Below, in pieces: positions 3,404 to 23,876 of a stretch of 64,000 nucleotides of DNA (position 1 is its first letter; each line of letters begins with the position of its first letter). The DNA comes from Noviherbaspirillum sp. L7-7A. GTDB lineage: Bacteria; Pseudomonadota; Gammaproteobacteria; Burkholderiales; Burkholderiaceae_D. Made by a program: the position numbers and the translations under genes. Below the pieces are notes generated by a model. That model did not search any database and was not told the DNA's origin. It worked only from the letters and a program-made list of their open reading frames with translations. Location: contig NZ_JAHQRJ010000002.1 in NCBI RefSeq assembly GCF_019052805.1, forward strand, positions 310,001 to 374,000, in the 5' to 3' direction.

Positions 3404-3420
3404 TGTCGAAAAACTTGACA
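3404..3420 (+). promoter_or_regulatory. candidate activator-binding dyad upstream of PEP-CTERM gene
   Basis: TGTCGAAAAACTTGACA is a TGTC-N9-GACA inverted repeat lying about 65-80 bases upstream of the sigma-54 -24 element at 3484. An almost identical site (TGTC-N9-TACA with the same GAAAAA core) sits upstream of the second PEP-CTERM gene at 22869-22885. Position and similarity suggest an enhancer-binding site, possibly for PrsR; this is inference. Confidence 0.5.
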
Positions 3421-3482
3421 GTTTCACCTAAGAATTTAGTTTCAAAAAATCAAGTCATTGAATAAAAACAATATATTTCCGG

Positions 3483-3498
3483 TGGCACATTTTATGCC
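3483..3498 (+). promoter_or_regulatory. sigma-54 (-24/-12) promoter
   Basis: TGGCAC, five bases ATTTT, then ATGCC: the GG at 3484-3485 and GC at 3496-3497 have the spacing of an RpoN promoter. The PEP-CTERM start codon is 62 bases downstream. The second PEP-CTERM gene has TGGTAC-ATTTT-TTGCT at a matching distance. Confidence 0.65.
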
Positions 3499-3559: not shown

Positions 3560-4228
3560 ATGAAAACACTCAAAACCTTCACGGCAATCGCAGCATTGGC
3601 CTGCGCTGCAACTACAATCCCGGCCCATGCAACCTTGACCACCTATACTGACCTAGCAGCTTTCCAAGCTGCTGCTGGTCTAACTACTGTTGAGACATTT
3701 TCATCCGCCACGGTCGGTTTCAGCACGGCTAACTATGCTGGTTCGTTCAAAGGATTTAGCCTTTCAACTGTTGCTAACGGCGATAACTCAGGTATTTCGA
3801 CCGGGTCATTGTCTTGGGGTGACGATACCGCTATCCCGTCGAACTTTGCAGGTCAAAACTTCTACGGTTGGGGCGACAGCGGTGATGGATATGTGGGACC
3901 GACCACCTTGTTCACGTTTGACAACGCCGTAACGGCGTTTGGTTTCGACTGGTTCGACACTGACTATACCGACAGCTATTCTGTAACTATAAACGGCCTC
4001 ACCGAGACAGTATTTAATACATTATCGAGCGGGTTTTTTGGCGTCGTTGGCACGGATAACGAAAGTTTCACGTCAGCGTCTATTCAGACCGCCTATTTCG
4101 GAGGTTTTATTTCAACAGAAGGCTTGGATAATGTGCGCGTTTCAGCCGTTCCTGAACCCACTGGCGTGGCTCTTTTCGGGATCGCTCTGGTTGGTCTCAT
4201 AACAGCTCGCCGTCGCTCACGCGGCTAG
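3560..4228 (+). CDS. PEP-CTERM sorting domain-containing exoprotein
   Basis: 222 residues with a Sec signal peptide (about residues 1-24, cleavage after PAHA), a beta-rich, Gly/Ser/Thr/Asp-rich middle, and a C-terminal PEP-CTERM signal: VPEPTGVALFGIALVGLI followed by TARRRSRG. The last part is the sorting motif, a membrane span and an Arg cluster, processed by exosortase (XrtA type) for delivery to the cell surface or extracellular matrix. The exosortase is not in this window. The ribosome binding site AGGGAG at 3549-3554 supports the start. A sigma-54 promoter and an upstream dyad precede it, and a clear hairpin terminator follows, so it is a monocistronic unit. The middle domain's specific role is unknown. 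Confidence 0.9.
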   Translation: MKTLKTFTAIAALACAATTIPAHATLTTYTDLAAFQAAAGLTTVETFSSATVGFSTANYAGSFKGFSLSTVANGDNSGISTGSLSWGDDTAIPSNFAGQNFYGWGDSGDGYVGPTTLFTFDNAVTAFGFDWFDTDYTDSYSVTINGLTETVFNTLSSGFFGVVGTDNESFTSASIQTAYFGGFISTEGLDNVRVSAVPEPTGVALFGIALVGLITARRRSRG

Positions 4229-18346: not shown

Positions 18347-21127
18347 CTATCGAGACGATGCATCCACAAGGATTGAAAAAAGCGTTTTAAAGTCTACCGG
18401 CTTCACTAGGTGGTAATCGAAGCCCGCGGCAAGGGTAGCTTTTTTGTCCTCTTCCTGACCATAGCCGGTTAAGGCGATCAGGAGTGTTTCGGCAGCTTCC
18501 GGCATGGCGCGCAGATGCTGCGCCAATTCATTACCGTTCATGTCAGGGAGTCCGATGTCCAACACGCAAACATCGGGCCGTTCGATGCTTGCACGCTCCA
18601 AGGCACTTCTTGCGCCGTTCTCAACCAACACCTGGTGACCAGATGCCTCTAGCAGCATGCTCAACAAGGTCGCCGCGTCCGCATTGTCATCCACCACTAG
18701 GATCTTCAGCGAGCTGCTTGAGATTTGGAGAGCGCCGTCGGACTGGGTCGTGTCGGGTTGCTCGACCGGCCGTCGCAGTCGCGGCAAACGTATAGTGAAC
18801 AGGCTGCCTTTGTCGGCGCCGTCGCTGTTCGCCTTGACCGAGCCCCCATGCAGTTCCACCAGACTTTTCACTAAAGCCAGACCCAGTCCCAATCCGCCTG
18901 TGGAACGATCGGAACTGCGTTCAGCCTGTGTAAACAGATCAAAGACCCGACTTAGCAGCTCGGGCGACATGCCGACACCGTTATCCTTTACATTGAGCAG
19001 CACATCGTCATTTAGCACTTCAGCGTGCAAGGCAATATTCCCACCTTCCGGCGTATATTTCGCGGCGTTGTTCAGAATATTGGTCACGATTTGCACCAGT
19101 CGCTTGCCGTCGCCTAGAACCATCATCTCATCTGGCGGAAGATGCAAAGCCAATTGATGGCGTTTTAGCTGAATGATTGGACCCGTCTGTTCTACCGCTT
19201 CGGCAATGACATGGCGCATGTCCAGCGTAGTATTGTCTAACTCAACCAGTCCTCGCTTGACCCGTGACACGTCCAGCAAATCATCAATCAAGTTGTTCAT
19301 GTGCCTGACCTGCCGACCGATGATTTCGCTGGTTTGCCTGACTTGGCTCCCATCCAGCCTGACCATCTGCAAAAGCTCGGAACCAGCGCTGATGGGCGCA
19401 AGCGGGTTGCGTAATTCATGCGCAAGCATGGCCAGGAATTCGTCCTTGCGGCGATCTGCTTCACGCAGTTCCTGCTCAATCAATTTGCTCTCCGTGATAT
19501 CCCTGAAAACAAATGCCACATGGCGGTCTTCCGGCTTTCCGATGGGAAAGGCATTCACGTCGAACCATCTGCCCAAAGCAGAAGAATGATCCGCGAAACG
19601 CTCTGCCTGCCCAGTTAGCGCAATCCTGCCAAAGGCATCGATCCACAATGCCTCCACGTTCGGCACCATTTGACGGATGGTTTTGCCAATGACTTCGTTC
19701 AGGCCGGTCTGCTGTTCGAATACCGGGTTTGTTTCAAGATAACGGAAATCCGCTGGCTCGCCTTCGTTATTCAGGATGACTTCGACAATGCCGAATCCCT
19801 CGTCCATCTTGCTAAAGAGCGTACGGTATTTTTCTTCTGACAGGCGCAAGGCTTCCTCGATGCGCTTGGATGCATCAATGTTCGTGACGACGGCGACTTG
19901 GCCAGTAATCTGCTTTCTGTCATTCCTGATCGGCACGGCTGCGACTTGAGTCCACATTTTCGTGCCGTCGTCCTGAGTGTACAGTGCCTCGATTCCCGGC
20001 ACCACTCGTTCCCCGCGCAGTGCCCGGGCTCCAGGAAATTCTTCGCGCGAAAGCAGACGGCCATCAGTGTCATGGGCGTTCCAGCGAGCATGGCGTTCGC
20101 CATCCTGGGAAGGGAGGATATTGGTTGGCAGATAATGCTGCATCTGCTGGTTGGAGAGTATGGTGCTGCCGTCTGGACTGAATACGCCAACCCCGACCGG
20201 GAGAATTTCGAAGACGGTTGACATCAACGCTTGGGCGTTATGCAGCGCCTCTTCTGCCTGCTTGCGATGAGTAATATCTAGTACGTTGCCGACAAAGCCC
20301 AGGAATTCACCTGAAATGGAAAATCGCGGGCGGCCGGCGTCAATTACCCAACGATAGCTTCCGTCCGCATGCAAGAGCCGGAATTCATCCTCGTATTCTT
20401 TCTTCCTTACATTGGCATCGATGAAGGCTGCCTTTGCGGTTTCGCGGTCTTCCGGATGGATGGCAAGTGTCCATCCATAACCGAACCCTTCATCCTTGCG
20501 TTGCCCGGTAAACTCGTGCCAACTCCGGGATAAAAATGAGCAAAAGCCGTCCGGTTCGGTTACCCAAAGCATGGCCGGCCCTGCGTCAGCTATCTCTAGG
20601 AAACGCTTCTCGCTCATCATCAAAGCCTGCTCGGTGCGCCAGCGCTGTATGACCGCAGCAGCTTGATTTGCACCGAAGCTCAACAGCAGCCGGTCATGCT
20701 CAGATGGAAAGTCAGCGCGATGGGACGCGGCAATGACCACGCCATTGTCCTCGGCAATGCCGAATCGGGTAGGATGCACGCACAATTGTCCATCGCCAAA
20801 CAAGTCCGGCAGAGCCATATCCTGGTTGACATCTCGCTGCGCCAGGAACCGATCCAGCTCCGCTCTGGTGCTCGGCGAAACAAGGTCGGCAACGTCGCGT
20901 TGATTGCTGGAAATGGCTTCAATTGACTCGCGCCGCTCGTGACTGGCAAGGCGGATATAAACTGAGTCCAGATTAAGTATGTCCAGGAACACCTGAGATA
21001 GGTTCTTGATCACTTCCTCAGGAGAAAGGCTACCCCAGAAGGCCTGCAAAGTCGAAATAGCAACGAGGTCACGGGTGGTTTGCTGCAGACGTTCCGTTTC
21101 CGAGCTAGGATTTTTTGCTGTCTGCAT
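18347..21127 (-). CDS. hybrid sensor histidine kinase with GAF, three PAS and REC domains
   Basis: 926 residues, apparently cytosolic since no signal peptide or membrane span is seen. GAF domain about 20-165, PAS domains about 172-290, 298-420 and 430-550, each ending in a PAC-like segment. HisKA with H-box FLAMLAHELRNPLAP (His570), HATPase with N-box asparagines around 684-687, G1 DNGVGM (715-720) and G2 GLGLGLAL. C-terminal receiver: acidic pair Asp813-Asp814, phosphoacceptor Asp857 (VLDIGLP), conserved Lys909 (LVKP). The protein autophosphorylates at His570 and passes phosphate to its own receiver. No partner regulator is adjacent, so the output is unknown. Sequence is intact. Confidence 0.93.
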   Translation of the reverse strand: MQTAKNPSSETERLQQTTRDLVAISTLQAFWGSLSPEEVIKNLSQVFLDILNLDSVYIRLASHERRESIEAISSNQRDVADLVSPSTRAELDRFLAQRDVNQDMALPDLFGDGQLCVHPTRFGIAEDNGVVIAASHRADFPSEHDRLLLSFGANQAAAVIQRWRTEQALMMSEKRFLEIADAGPAMLWVTEPDGFCSFLSRSWHEFTGQRKDEGFGYGWTLAIHPEDRETAKAAFIDANVRKKEYEDEFRLLHADGSYRWVIDAGRPRFSISGEFLGFVGNVLDITHRKQAEEALHNAQALMSTVFEILPVGVGVFSPDGSTILSNQQMQHYLPTNILPSQDGERHARWNAHDTDGRLLSREEFPGARALRGERVVPGIEALYTQDDGTKMWTQVAAVPIRNDRKQITGQVAVVTNIDASKRIEEALRLSEEKYRTLFSKMDEGFGIVEVILNNEGEPADFRYLETNPVFEQQTGLNEVIGKTIRQMVPNVEALWIDAFGRIALTGQAERFADHSSALGRWFDVNAFPIGKPEDRHVAFVFRDITESKLIEQELREADRRKDEFLAMLAHELRNPLAPISAGSELLQMVRLDGSQVRQTSEIIGRQVRHMNNLIDDLLDVSRVKRGLVELDNTTLDMRHVIAEAVEQTGPIIQLKRHQLALHLPPDEMMVLGDGKRLVQIVTNILNNAAKYTPEGGNIALHAEVLNDDVLLNVKDNGVGMSPELLSRVFDLFTQAERSSDRSTGGLGLGLALVKSLVELHGGSVKANSDGADKGSLFTIRLPRLRRPVEQPDTTQSDGALQISSSSLKILVVDDNADAATLLSMLLEASGHQVLVENGARSALERASIERPDVCVLDIGLPDMNGNELAQHLRAMPEAAETLLIALTGYGQEEDKKATLAAGFDYHLVKPVDFKTLFSILVDASSR

Positions 21128-22868: not shown

Positions 22869-22885
22869 TGTCGAAAAATTTTACA
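22869..22885 (+). promoter_or_regulatory. candidate activator-binding dyad upstream of second PEP-CTERM gene
   Basis: TGTCGAAAAATTTTACA resembles the TGTC-N9-GACA site at 3404-3420 (same TGTCGAAAAA half). It lies about 85-100 bases upstream of the sigma-54 -24 element. Repeated GTTACC strings follow at about 22897-22910. Confidence 0.5.
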
Positions 22886-22969
22886 CCAATTGTTACCGAT
22901 AGTTACCAAACGTTAATACTTATTAAATTGTTTATTTCAAATCAAATAGTTACGAATTCGTCAACTGTT

Positions 22970-22985
22970 TGGTACATTTTTTGCT
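22970..22985 (+). promoter_or_regulatory. sigma-54 (-24/-12) promoter
   Basis: TGGTAC-ATTTT-TTGCT agrees with the RpoN consensus TGGCAC-N5-TTGCW at all but one position, with GG and GC at the required spacing. The PEP-CTERM start codon is 58 bases downstream. Confidence 0.75.
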
Positions 22986-23042: not shown

Positions 23043-23876
23043 ATGAACTGCGTTAAGTGTATTTGCGCCGGGGCTTTTGCCGTATTCGCCTCAGTTCCGG
23101 CAGCAGCAGCCACCTTCGTCAATGGTGGCTTCGAAACTGGCACTACTGCGGGCTGGTCTACCGGCGAGGGCTACCGCGGCGGTGTCGACAATGCAGCACT
23201 CACACCGTCGAGCGTTCTCCCCGGCGGTTCGCTATATGATGGCCCTGCAACCCGGTCAGGCGTTGTTTCCGCCGGAACTGTCGATCCGACCATTGGCGCT
23301 TCCTTTGGAAGCACTGTCTATGCGGGCAACAACGCCTACCGGATTGAGGACACATCGTCTGGCGGCTACGCTTCGGCGATCAGCCAAAAGGTGACCGGCT
23401 ATACCGACTCAACCATTATTTTTGCTTGGAAGGCGGTGCTCGAGAATGGCGGCCATGATCCAGCTGACTCAGCTTTCTTCCGCATCGTGCTGCGCGATGA
23501 CACCACCGGACGGGATGTGATCAGTCGCACCTATGATGCTGGCGCCGAAGGGGGTGGAGTGGACAGTCGCTTCTCCGCCCTTGGTGACTACTTCTATACT
23601 TCGCAATGGCAGATCGAAAACCTGGTCATCGATTCATCCCTTCTCGGCCATGACTTCACTCTCGCGTTGCTTGCTGCCGATTGCCTACCGACCGGGCATC
23701 TCGGCTACGCCTACCTAGATGGGTTCGGTGGCTCGATAACAAATCCTCCGCCAATCGATCCGCCGCCTGGCGGCAATCCTCCGCCAACCGGCCAAGTACC
23801 GCTTCCTGGAACCTTAGCTTTGCTGGGCTTGGGTATGGCAAGCCTTTCTGCTGCTCGCCGGCGTAAAGCTGCCTAG
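23043..23876 (+). CDS. PEP-CTERM-type exoprotein
   Basis: 277 residues with a signal peptide (about 1-22, ending AAAA), a beta-rich domain starting FVNGGFETGTTAGWS, typical of carbohydrate-binding-like PEP-CTERM proteins, a proline-rich linker (PPIDPPPGGNPPPTG) and a C-terminal sorting signal VPLPGTLALLGLGMASL followed by SAARRRKAA. The usual VPEP is replaced by VPLP, a known variant. It would be exported and processed by exosortase. Transcription is predicted from the sigma-54 site at 22970; a strong terminator follows directly. It shares promoter design with the PEP-CTERM gene at 3560, so the two are probably co-regulated. Confidence 0.88.
   Translation: MNCVKCICAGAFAVFASVPAAAATFVNGGFETGTTAGWSTGEGYRGGVDNAALTPSSVLPGGSLYDGPATRSGVVSAGTVDPTIGASFGSTVYAGNNAYRIEDTSSGGYASAISQKVTGYTDSTIIFAWKAVLENGGHDPADSAFFRIVLRDDTTGRDVISRTYDAGAEGGGVDSRFSALGDYFYTSQWQIENLVIDSSLLGHDFTLALLAADCLPTGHLGYAYLDGFGGSITNPPPIDPPPGGNPPPTGQVPLPGTLALLGLGMASLSAARRRKAA

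Follow-up and report, generated by a model that had tools for sequence, protein, structure and literature searches.

Which regulator switches on the two PEP-CTERM genes found in the window, and do the elements in front of them mark a wider regulon? The window is the whole 64,000-nucleotide stretch of the Noviherbaspirillum sp. L7-7A genome that was analysed here. A first-pass annotation of it had placed a sigma-54 promoter and an upstream TGTC-N9-GACA-like dyad ahead of both genes, and had proposed that the dyad serves the PrsK/PrsR pair as an enhancer and defines a regulon. Promoters of this class have been described in proteobacteria, where a 17-nt motif ending in TTTACA, a spacer and a sigma-54 motif were reported before 99 of 167 PEP-CTERM genes (Haft 2006, PMC1569441). 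In the same report the spacer was given as 62.8 ± 10.6 nt (range 32-92), the motif was assigned to PrsR, and its occurrence across species was matched to that of PrsR, PrsK and PrsT. For Aquincola tertiaricarbonis RN12, RpoN1 dependence of the PEP-CTERM gene pepA has been reported from experiment, with the start mapped behind TGGCAC/CTGCTT and a predicted enhancer upstream (PMC9850573).

Results

Two PEP-CTERM promoters with three elements each

The first PEP-CTERM gene of the window (3560-4228, + strand) encodes a 222-aa protein ending in VPEPTGVALFGIALVGLITARRRSRG, and the second (23043-23876, + strand) a 277-aa protein ending in VPLPGTLALLGLGMASLSAARRRKAA. Their C-terminal segments match PF07589 with 22.9 and 27.3 bits, respectively, above the Pfam cut-off of 20.7 bits, and no other TIGR02595 or PF07589 match of the genome falls within the window. 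A gene for a 926-aa hybrid sensor kinase (18347-21127, − strand) adjoins the second PEP-CTERM gene.

When checked against the sequence, all four upstream strings lie where the first-pass annotation had put them, namely TGTCGAAAAACTTGACA at 3404-3420, TGGCACATTTTATGCC at 3483-3498, TGTCGAAAAATTTTACA at 22869-22885 and TGGTACATTTTTTGCT at 22970-22985, and the two start codons (ATG, at 3560 and 23043) are, as it had given, 62 and 58 bases past the promoter ends. The putative PrsR box of promoter 1 (3404-3420, + strand; motif 1 of Haft 2006) has the 3′ end TTGACA and scores 20.1 with a position weight matrix (PWM) built from relatives only. Between it and the sigma-54 -24/-12 promoter TGGCACATTTTATGC (3483-3497, + strand; 79 bp from box start to TGG) lies an IHF-consensus-like site with one mismatch, CAAGTCATTGAAT (3451-3463, − strand). 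This site occupies a "near" position, offset by 47 from the box start, and its pseudo-dyad is ~19 bp ahead of the TGG by the position rule derived from the relatives' promoters. The putative box of promoter 2 (22869-22885, + strand) is near the family consensus, has the 3′ end TTTTACA and scores 26.3. Here the IHF-consensus site AATCAAATAGTTA (22940-22952, + strand) is a perfect match in a "far" position, offset by 71 from the box start and with its pseudo-dyad ~31 bp ahead of the TGG, and the sigma-54 -24/-12 promoter TGGTACATTTTTTGC (22970-22984, + strand) begins 101 bp after the box start. Counted from the box end, the TGG follows after 62 nt in promoter 1 and 84 nt in promoter 2, inside the 32-92 nt range of Haft 2006. 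Both promoters have a 17-nt box with a TTTACA-type 3′ end ahead of a PEP-CTERM gene and a TGGCAC-N5-TTGCW-like element, and the genome encodes RpoN (one Sigma54_DBD match, 224 bits). A pattern composed after both sites were known, TGTCGA-N5-TTKACA with TGG-N9-TGC 31-91 bases further on, matches the window exactly twice, at these two promoters, while the box plus promoter pattern appeared in none of 100 dinucleotide-preserving shuffles of the window.

The box lies where the dyad had been proposed, but as a dyad it is imperfect and asymmetric. Searching the genome for TGTC-N9-GACA returned 66 sites compared to 57 for a reversed-pattern control; this is no enrichment, and the pattern was dropped as a search term for the operator. 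With the 3′ half relaxed, the genome search gave 19 box plus promoter matches, of which seven stand ahead of PEP-CTERM genes, whereas nine are chance-like. The remaining three (L054, L055 and L056) stand ahead of other genes and have an AT-rich spacer and in-register spacing. Nine of the 19 matches end in GACA, and only the window's site at 3404 is upstream of and on the same strand as a PEP-CTERM match. Boxes of relatives give the consensus TGTCGR-N5-TTTACA, in which the TGTCG and TTTACA ends were fixed by the search pattern.

The regulon in the Noviherbaspirillum genome

The genome (5,224,893 bases in three contigs) has 18 loci above the TIGR02595 or PF07589 cut-off, 16 of them of the TIGR02595 type. 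A joint matrix scan detected a box with a -24/-12 element at 12 of these 18 loci and none at the other six. Joint scores of the 12 loci ranged from 26.5 to 45.4 against a shuffle maximum of 9.5, with a matrix built partly from nine of these 12 boxes; with the relatives-only matrix all 12 boxes score 12.7-26.3, in one common orientation. The spacing from box start to TGG is 78-80 bp in 11 of the promoters and 101 bp in that of the window's second gene. Among the six loci that lack the box (L008, L017, L018, L019, L021 and L042), the open frames around L008 and L042 span just 80 and 38 codons, respectively, and the matched frame of L017 is broken by a stop. An early 56-bp spacing class in this genome, based on hand-made sites (spacing 56 in L012, none in L013), was dropped because the joint matrix gave in-register sites with a spacing of 78 in both. 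L012 also has a distal box in the opposite orientation (211 bp), and L013 a second, distal one (252 bp); both were left out of the analysis.

One PrsR is above the cut-off (TIGR02915, 756 bits, cut-off 502.6; C1:1583691-1585019), with one PrsK above the cut-off adjoining it (TIGR02916, 862 bits, cut-off 300), and their neighbours are an exosortase-A-associated ligase and a glycosyltransferase. Exosortase A (L329; TIGR03109, 353 bits, cut-off 208) is encoded together with its PEP-CTERM substrates, as in an XrtA system. IhfA and IhfB are also encoded (L322, 163 and 150.6 bits; L321, 152.2 and 132.4 bits), above the NCBIfam cut-offs.

Three box promoters of this genome precede genes of other kinds. 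L054 (C1:833722-833813, − strand; spacing 77) stands before an Acyl_transf_3 gene (95 bits) and is likely to belong to the regulon although the gene is not of the PEP-CTERM kind; a search allowing two mismatches found no IHF site there. L055 (C1:1771203-1771298, − strand) has a box and -24/-12 element with a spacing of 81 before an OpgC_C gene (186 bits). L056 (C1:1775162-1775256, − strand; spacing 80) stands before a gene for a 94-aa protein beginning METILLKGKAVPKF, which has no Pfam match; a PAS/hybrid kinase reading frame comes next. By eye, the 926-aa kinase of the window is like this hybrid kinase. Box promoters with a small ORF like that of L056 were also seen in two genomes of the same genus (L295 in G312 and L298 in G348).

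Box, PrsR and PEP-CTERM genes in relatives

The box-promoter pattern was found in 162 of 392 genomes of the family, compared to six matches in the rows of a reversed-pattern control. A pattern longer by one base matched four of 300 genomes of the order, the present genome not among them. PrsR, called at E ≤ 1e-140, is present in 191 of the 392 genomes. Both box and PrsR occur in 149 genomes and neither in 188, while 13 of the 162 box genomes lack a PrsR above the cut-off and 42 of the 191 PrsR genomes lack a strict box-promoter match (Fisher p 3e-52, on genomes that are not independent).

A PEP-CTERM ORF lies behind 119 of 170 distinct promoters, compared to two of 319 control windows on the opposite strands, in a set where relatedness of the genomes makes the promoters non-independent and where an exact box pattern supplied most of them. 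These 170 are the promoters with at least 900 nt downstream; six of 176 distinct promoters were shorter and were excluded. The PEP-CTERM model was purpose-built from 13 C-termini of the Noviherbaspirillum genome. The assumption that every box promoter stands ahead of a PEP-CTERM gene was ruled out, as 51 of the 170 gave no match to this small model; part of these 51 are nevertheless PEP-CTERM by NCBIfam, TIGR02595 being found in six of 31 scanned proteins (28 from the 51 and three from the Noviherbaspirillum genome). Two gammaproteobacterial contigs (L109 and L153) have PilZ-domain genes behind box promoters with spacings of 101 and 102 and an IHF site, a possible link to c-di-GMP. At L113, L115, L160 and L242, the proteins behind the box promoters look exported, have an RR-x-FT/LL N-terminus and lack a Pfam match; they are possibly one unnamed family.

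Together with the box and -24/-12 element at 12 of 18 PEP-CTERM loci of the genome itself, this comparison of loci and genomes supports the proposal that the box is the PrsK/PrsR enhancer site and marks a regulon, although binding of PrsR to the box is a prediction both here and in the cited papers.

The spacing between box and promoter is quantised

The distance from box start to TGG forms a comb with teeth near 69, 80, 90.5 and 102 bp. Among the first 150 family places listed, 146 fall on the teeth, with 20 at 67-70, 93 at 77-82, 19 at 89-92 and 14 at 99-103 bp. The four off-tooth places among these 150 have spacings of 48, 58, 60 and 72, and the two that were examined as loci (L223 and L230) did not give a PEP-CTERM ORF. 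Every one of the 119 promoters with a PEP-CTERM ORF behind it is on a tooth (67-71, 77-82, 89-92 or 99-103), and the phase of their spacings has a vector length of 0.87 at a period of 11.0. Off-tooth promoters make up eight of the 176, none of them among the 119. Of the 150 listed places, the 176-promoter sample includes all 52 that lie in other genomes on the 69, 90.5 or 102 tooth, compared to just 28 from the 80 tooth, so that the sizes of the tooth classes in the samples of 176 and 119 are not representative, the 80 tooth being under-sampled; those of the 150 places are representative for the listed part. The comb was repeated in named GTDB contigs (at least 80 loci from at least 118 stretches). 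A comb of this kind, we infer, would produce roughly the standard deviation of 10.6 nt published in 2006.

Both window promoters fit the comb and the associated IHF-site position, the box-to-TGG distance of promoter 2 being two teeth longer than that of promoter 1 (101 compared to 79 bp). Second boxes up to 100 bp upstream number five among the 119 promoters (shuffle mean 0), too small a set to build on.

An IHF-type element lies between box and promoter

Most promoters of the Noviherbaspirillum genome have YAA-N4-TTGATW between box and promoter, 47-49 bp from the box start. This is the reverse complement of the IHF consensus, which we took to be WATCAA-N4-TTR, with the pseudo-dyad presumably beside the WATCAA core as in the known structure. 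Published papers, PMC3897727 among them, give the consensus as WATCAR-N4-TTR. A site with at most one mismatch is present in 82 of the 119 promoters, compared to 17.9 ± 4.0 (maximum 32) in 300 dinucleotide shuffles, and a perfect site in 31 of 119 compared to 1.1 ± 1.0 (maximum 5). In the remaining 37 promoters no site was recognised with up to one mismatch, and four of the 119 have theirs elsewhere than at the near or far position. Site centres cluster at -18 to -20 and at -29 to -32 from the TGG. Sites occur in either orientation, and the pseudo-dyad, or bend centre, falls at one common place. The 33 promoters with a spacing of 80, unselected for IHF, gave the logo YAA-GT-NA-TTGATW at one place, with columns of A 30, A 26, T 31 and G 27 of 33.

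The position of the site varies with the tooth. The 69 and 80 classes have the near site alone (16 and 34 promoters), the 90 class has eight near, nine far and three with both, and the 102 class has the far site only, in eight of the eight promoters where it was located, with five more promoters without a site. IHF-type sites are also present in alpha-, gamma- and some deltaproteobacterial records. An above-chance consensus between box and promoter, in a genome that encodes IhfA and IhfB, is what is expected of an IHF-assisted sigma-54 promoter.

Discussion

The promoters of the window are of an ordinary, already described type, found in a new genome. The inference of the first-pass annotation was right in kind but not new, since Haft 2006 had defined the promoter class and RpoN1 dependence had been established in Aquincola. 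Box, spacer, sigma-54 motif, PEP-CTERM units that are mostly single genes and the presence of PrsR and PrsK in the genome are shared with the Haft class; the difference is that spacing was given there as a mean with a standard deviation, whereas here it falls on teeth ~11 bp apart (PMC1569441). Aquincola pepA is of the same type, with an RpoN1 promoter and a predicted enhancer upstream, but was studied by experiment at one promoter, in an account that does not mention IHF (PMC9850573). The term is likewise absent from the report of the Haft class (PMC1569441). For the PrsR regulon, the open-licence literature searched gave no description of the comb or of an IHF element, with earlier reports possible elsewhere, and its sole match joining exosortase, IHF and promoter was a Geobacter paper (PMC7962754). 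To the known class our comparison adds a comb-like spacing rule and a putative IHF element, which make the mechanism directly testable.

Three elements in a fixed order, with quantised spacing and linked to PEP-CTERM genes and to the presence of PrsR, are features of the genomes themselves; from them we infer which proteins are bound, the bend, the phosphorylation and the activation. We consider it probable that both window genes belong to the PrsK/PrsR-RpoN regulon of the XrtA PEP-CTERM system, with an IHF bend and helical phasing. Phosphorylated PrsR, an NtrC-type response regulator, would bind TGTCGR-N5-TTTACA ~98-120 bp upstream of the transcription start. IHF on the DNA between box and promoter would bend it such that PrsR meets the RNA polymerase-sigma-54 waiting at -24/-12, and ATP hydrolysis by PrsR would open the promoter. 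Box, bend and promoter would each have to keep to one face of the helix, which would let spacing change only in steps of ~11 bp, and the short loop would make the helical phase strict. The steps would be carried by two arms, box to IHF (~41, 53 or 63 bp, centre to centre) and IHF to promoter (~19 or 30 bp).

One alternative concerns the third element: a protein other than IHF might bind it, or it might be a static, curved A-tract, the region being AT-rich; we regard this as rather unlikely. IHF occupancy here is predicted from sequence, and in two ihf mutants of Geobacter sulfurreducens, whose genome has several ihf copies, the PEP-motif gene GSU1943 went up, not down, 2.98- and 2.83-fold (PMC7962754, Table 2). 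This rise opposes simple activation by IHF, GSU1943 being known here as a PEP-motif gene only; IHF may act on promoters of this kind in both ways, restraining and helping, or a different factor may read the element. Exact matches to the published consensus are nevertheless far above dinucleotide shuffles, and sites in both orientations share one common centre, as expected of a pseudo-symmetric bending protein. Moreover, IHF between the activator site and the -24/-12 element is the usual arrangement of such promoters in published accounts, PMC3897727 among them. At orp1 and orp2 of Desulfovibrio vulgaris, for example, the IHF site sits downstream of the activator palindrome and upstream of the -24/-12 promoter, as proposed here, although these are single promoters with another activator and a more distant activator site (-131 at orp1), for which that account describes no regulon-wide phasing (PMC3897727).

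A second alternative retains box and sigma-54 promoter as described but has another NtrC-family protein in place of PrsR as the activator. The genome has nine matches to the PrsR model at E < 1e-75, PrsR included, and in 13 genomes the box occurs although no PrsR passes the cut-off. Eleven of these 13 have just one or two box matches each, however, and in the other two, G624 (eight matches) and G526 (one match), PrsR is split. With box and PrsR occurring together across genomes as counted above (149 with both and 188 with neither, against 13 and 42 discordant), and the same profile match reported in other species (Haft 2006, PMC1569441), we consider another activator improbable. The split PrsR genes lie in two overlapping frames (G624 C1:1885804-1887121; G526 C1:4271673-4273009) in genomes where boxes are still present, and result from either gene disruption or faulty assembly.

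Shared ancestry of a few promoters, with no mechanical need for helical phase, could also leave a comb. One family supplies many of the 119 promoters, some genera are heavily represented, and there are paralogous copies. Yet the comb is seen both in the family sample and in named alpha-, beta-, gamma- and deltaproteobacterial contigs, the sequence between the elements is not conserved, and four teeth and both near and far IHF positions are filled; descent alone is therefore a poor candidate for explaining the phase. Chance resemblance in AT-rich intergenic DNA, conceivable for short motifs at two sites spotted by eye, is refuted by the counts (none in 100 shuffles, 162 of 392 genomes compared to four of 300 for the longer pattern, and 119 of 170 promoters with a PEP-CTERM ORF) and can be given practically no weight.

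Beyond the window, we lean towards a general reading of PrsK/PrsR-RpoN control with an IHF bend. The whole proteobacterial PrsR regulon may be built on one mechanically tuned box/IHF/sigma-54 promoter held in helical register, with whole-turn changes shared between its two arms, a constraint that would be readable from genome statistics, and it may reach polysaccharide acyltransferases and c-di-GMP-binding PilZ proteins. Together with their exopolysaccharides, PEP-CTERM proteins form flocs and biofilms. PrsR has been predicted as the activator since 2006, and the reports drawn on here contain little bench work on it. If the three-part layout is true, it names the exact bases to mutate and predicts that the insertion of half a helical turn would kill the promoter while that of a whole turn would not. 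The spacing rule would sort true members of the regulon from chance matches in genome searches, and the set of promoters would offer a natural series of phased enhancers for studies of DNA looping.
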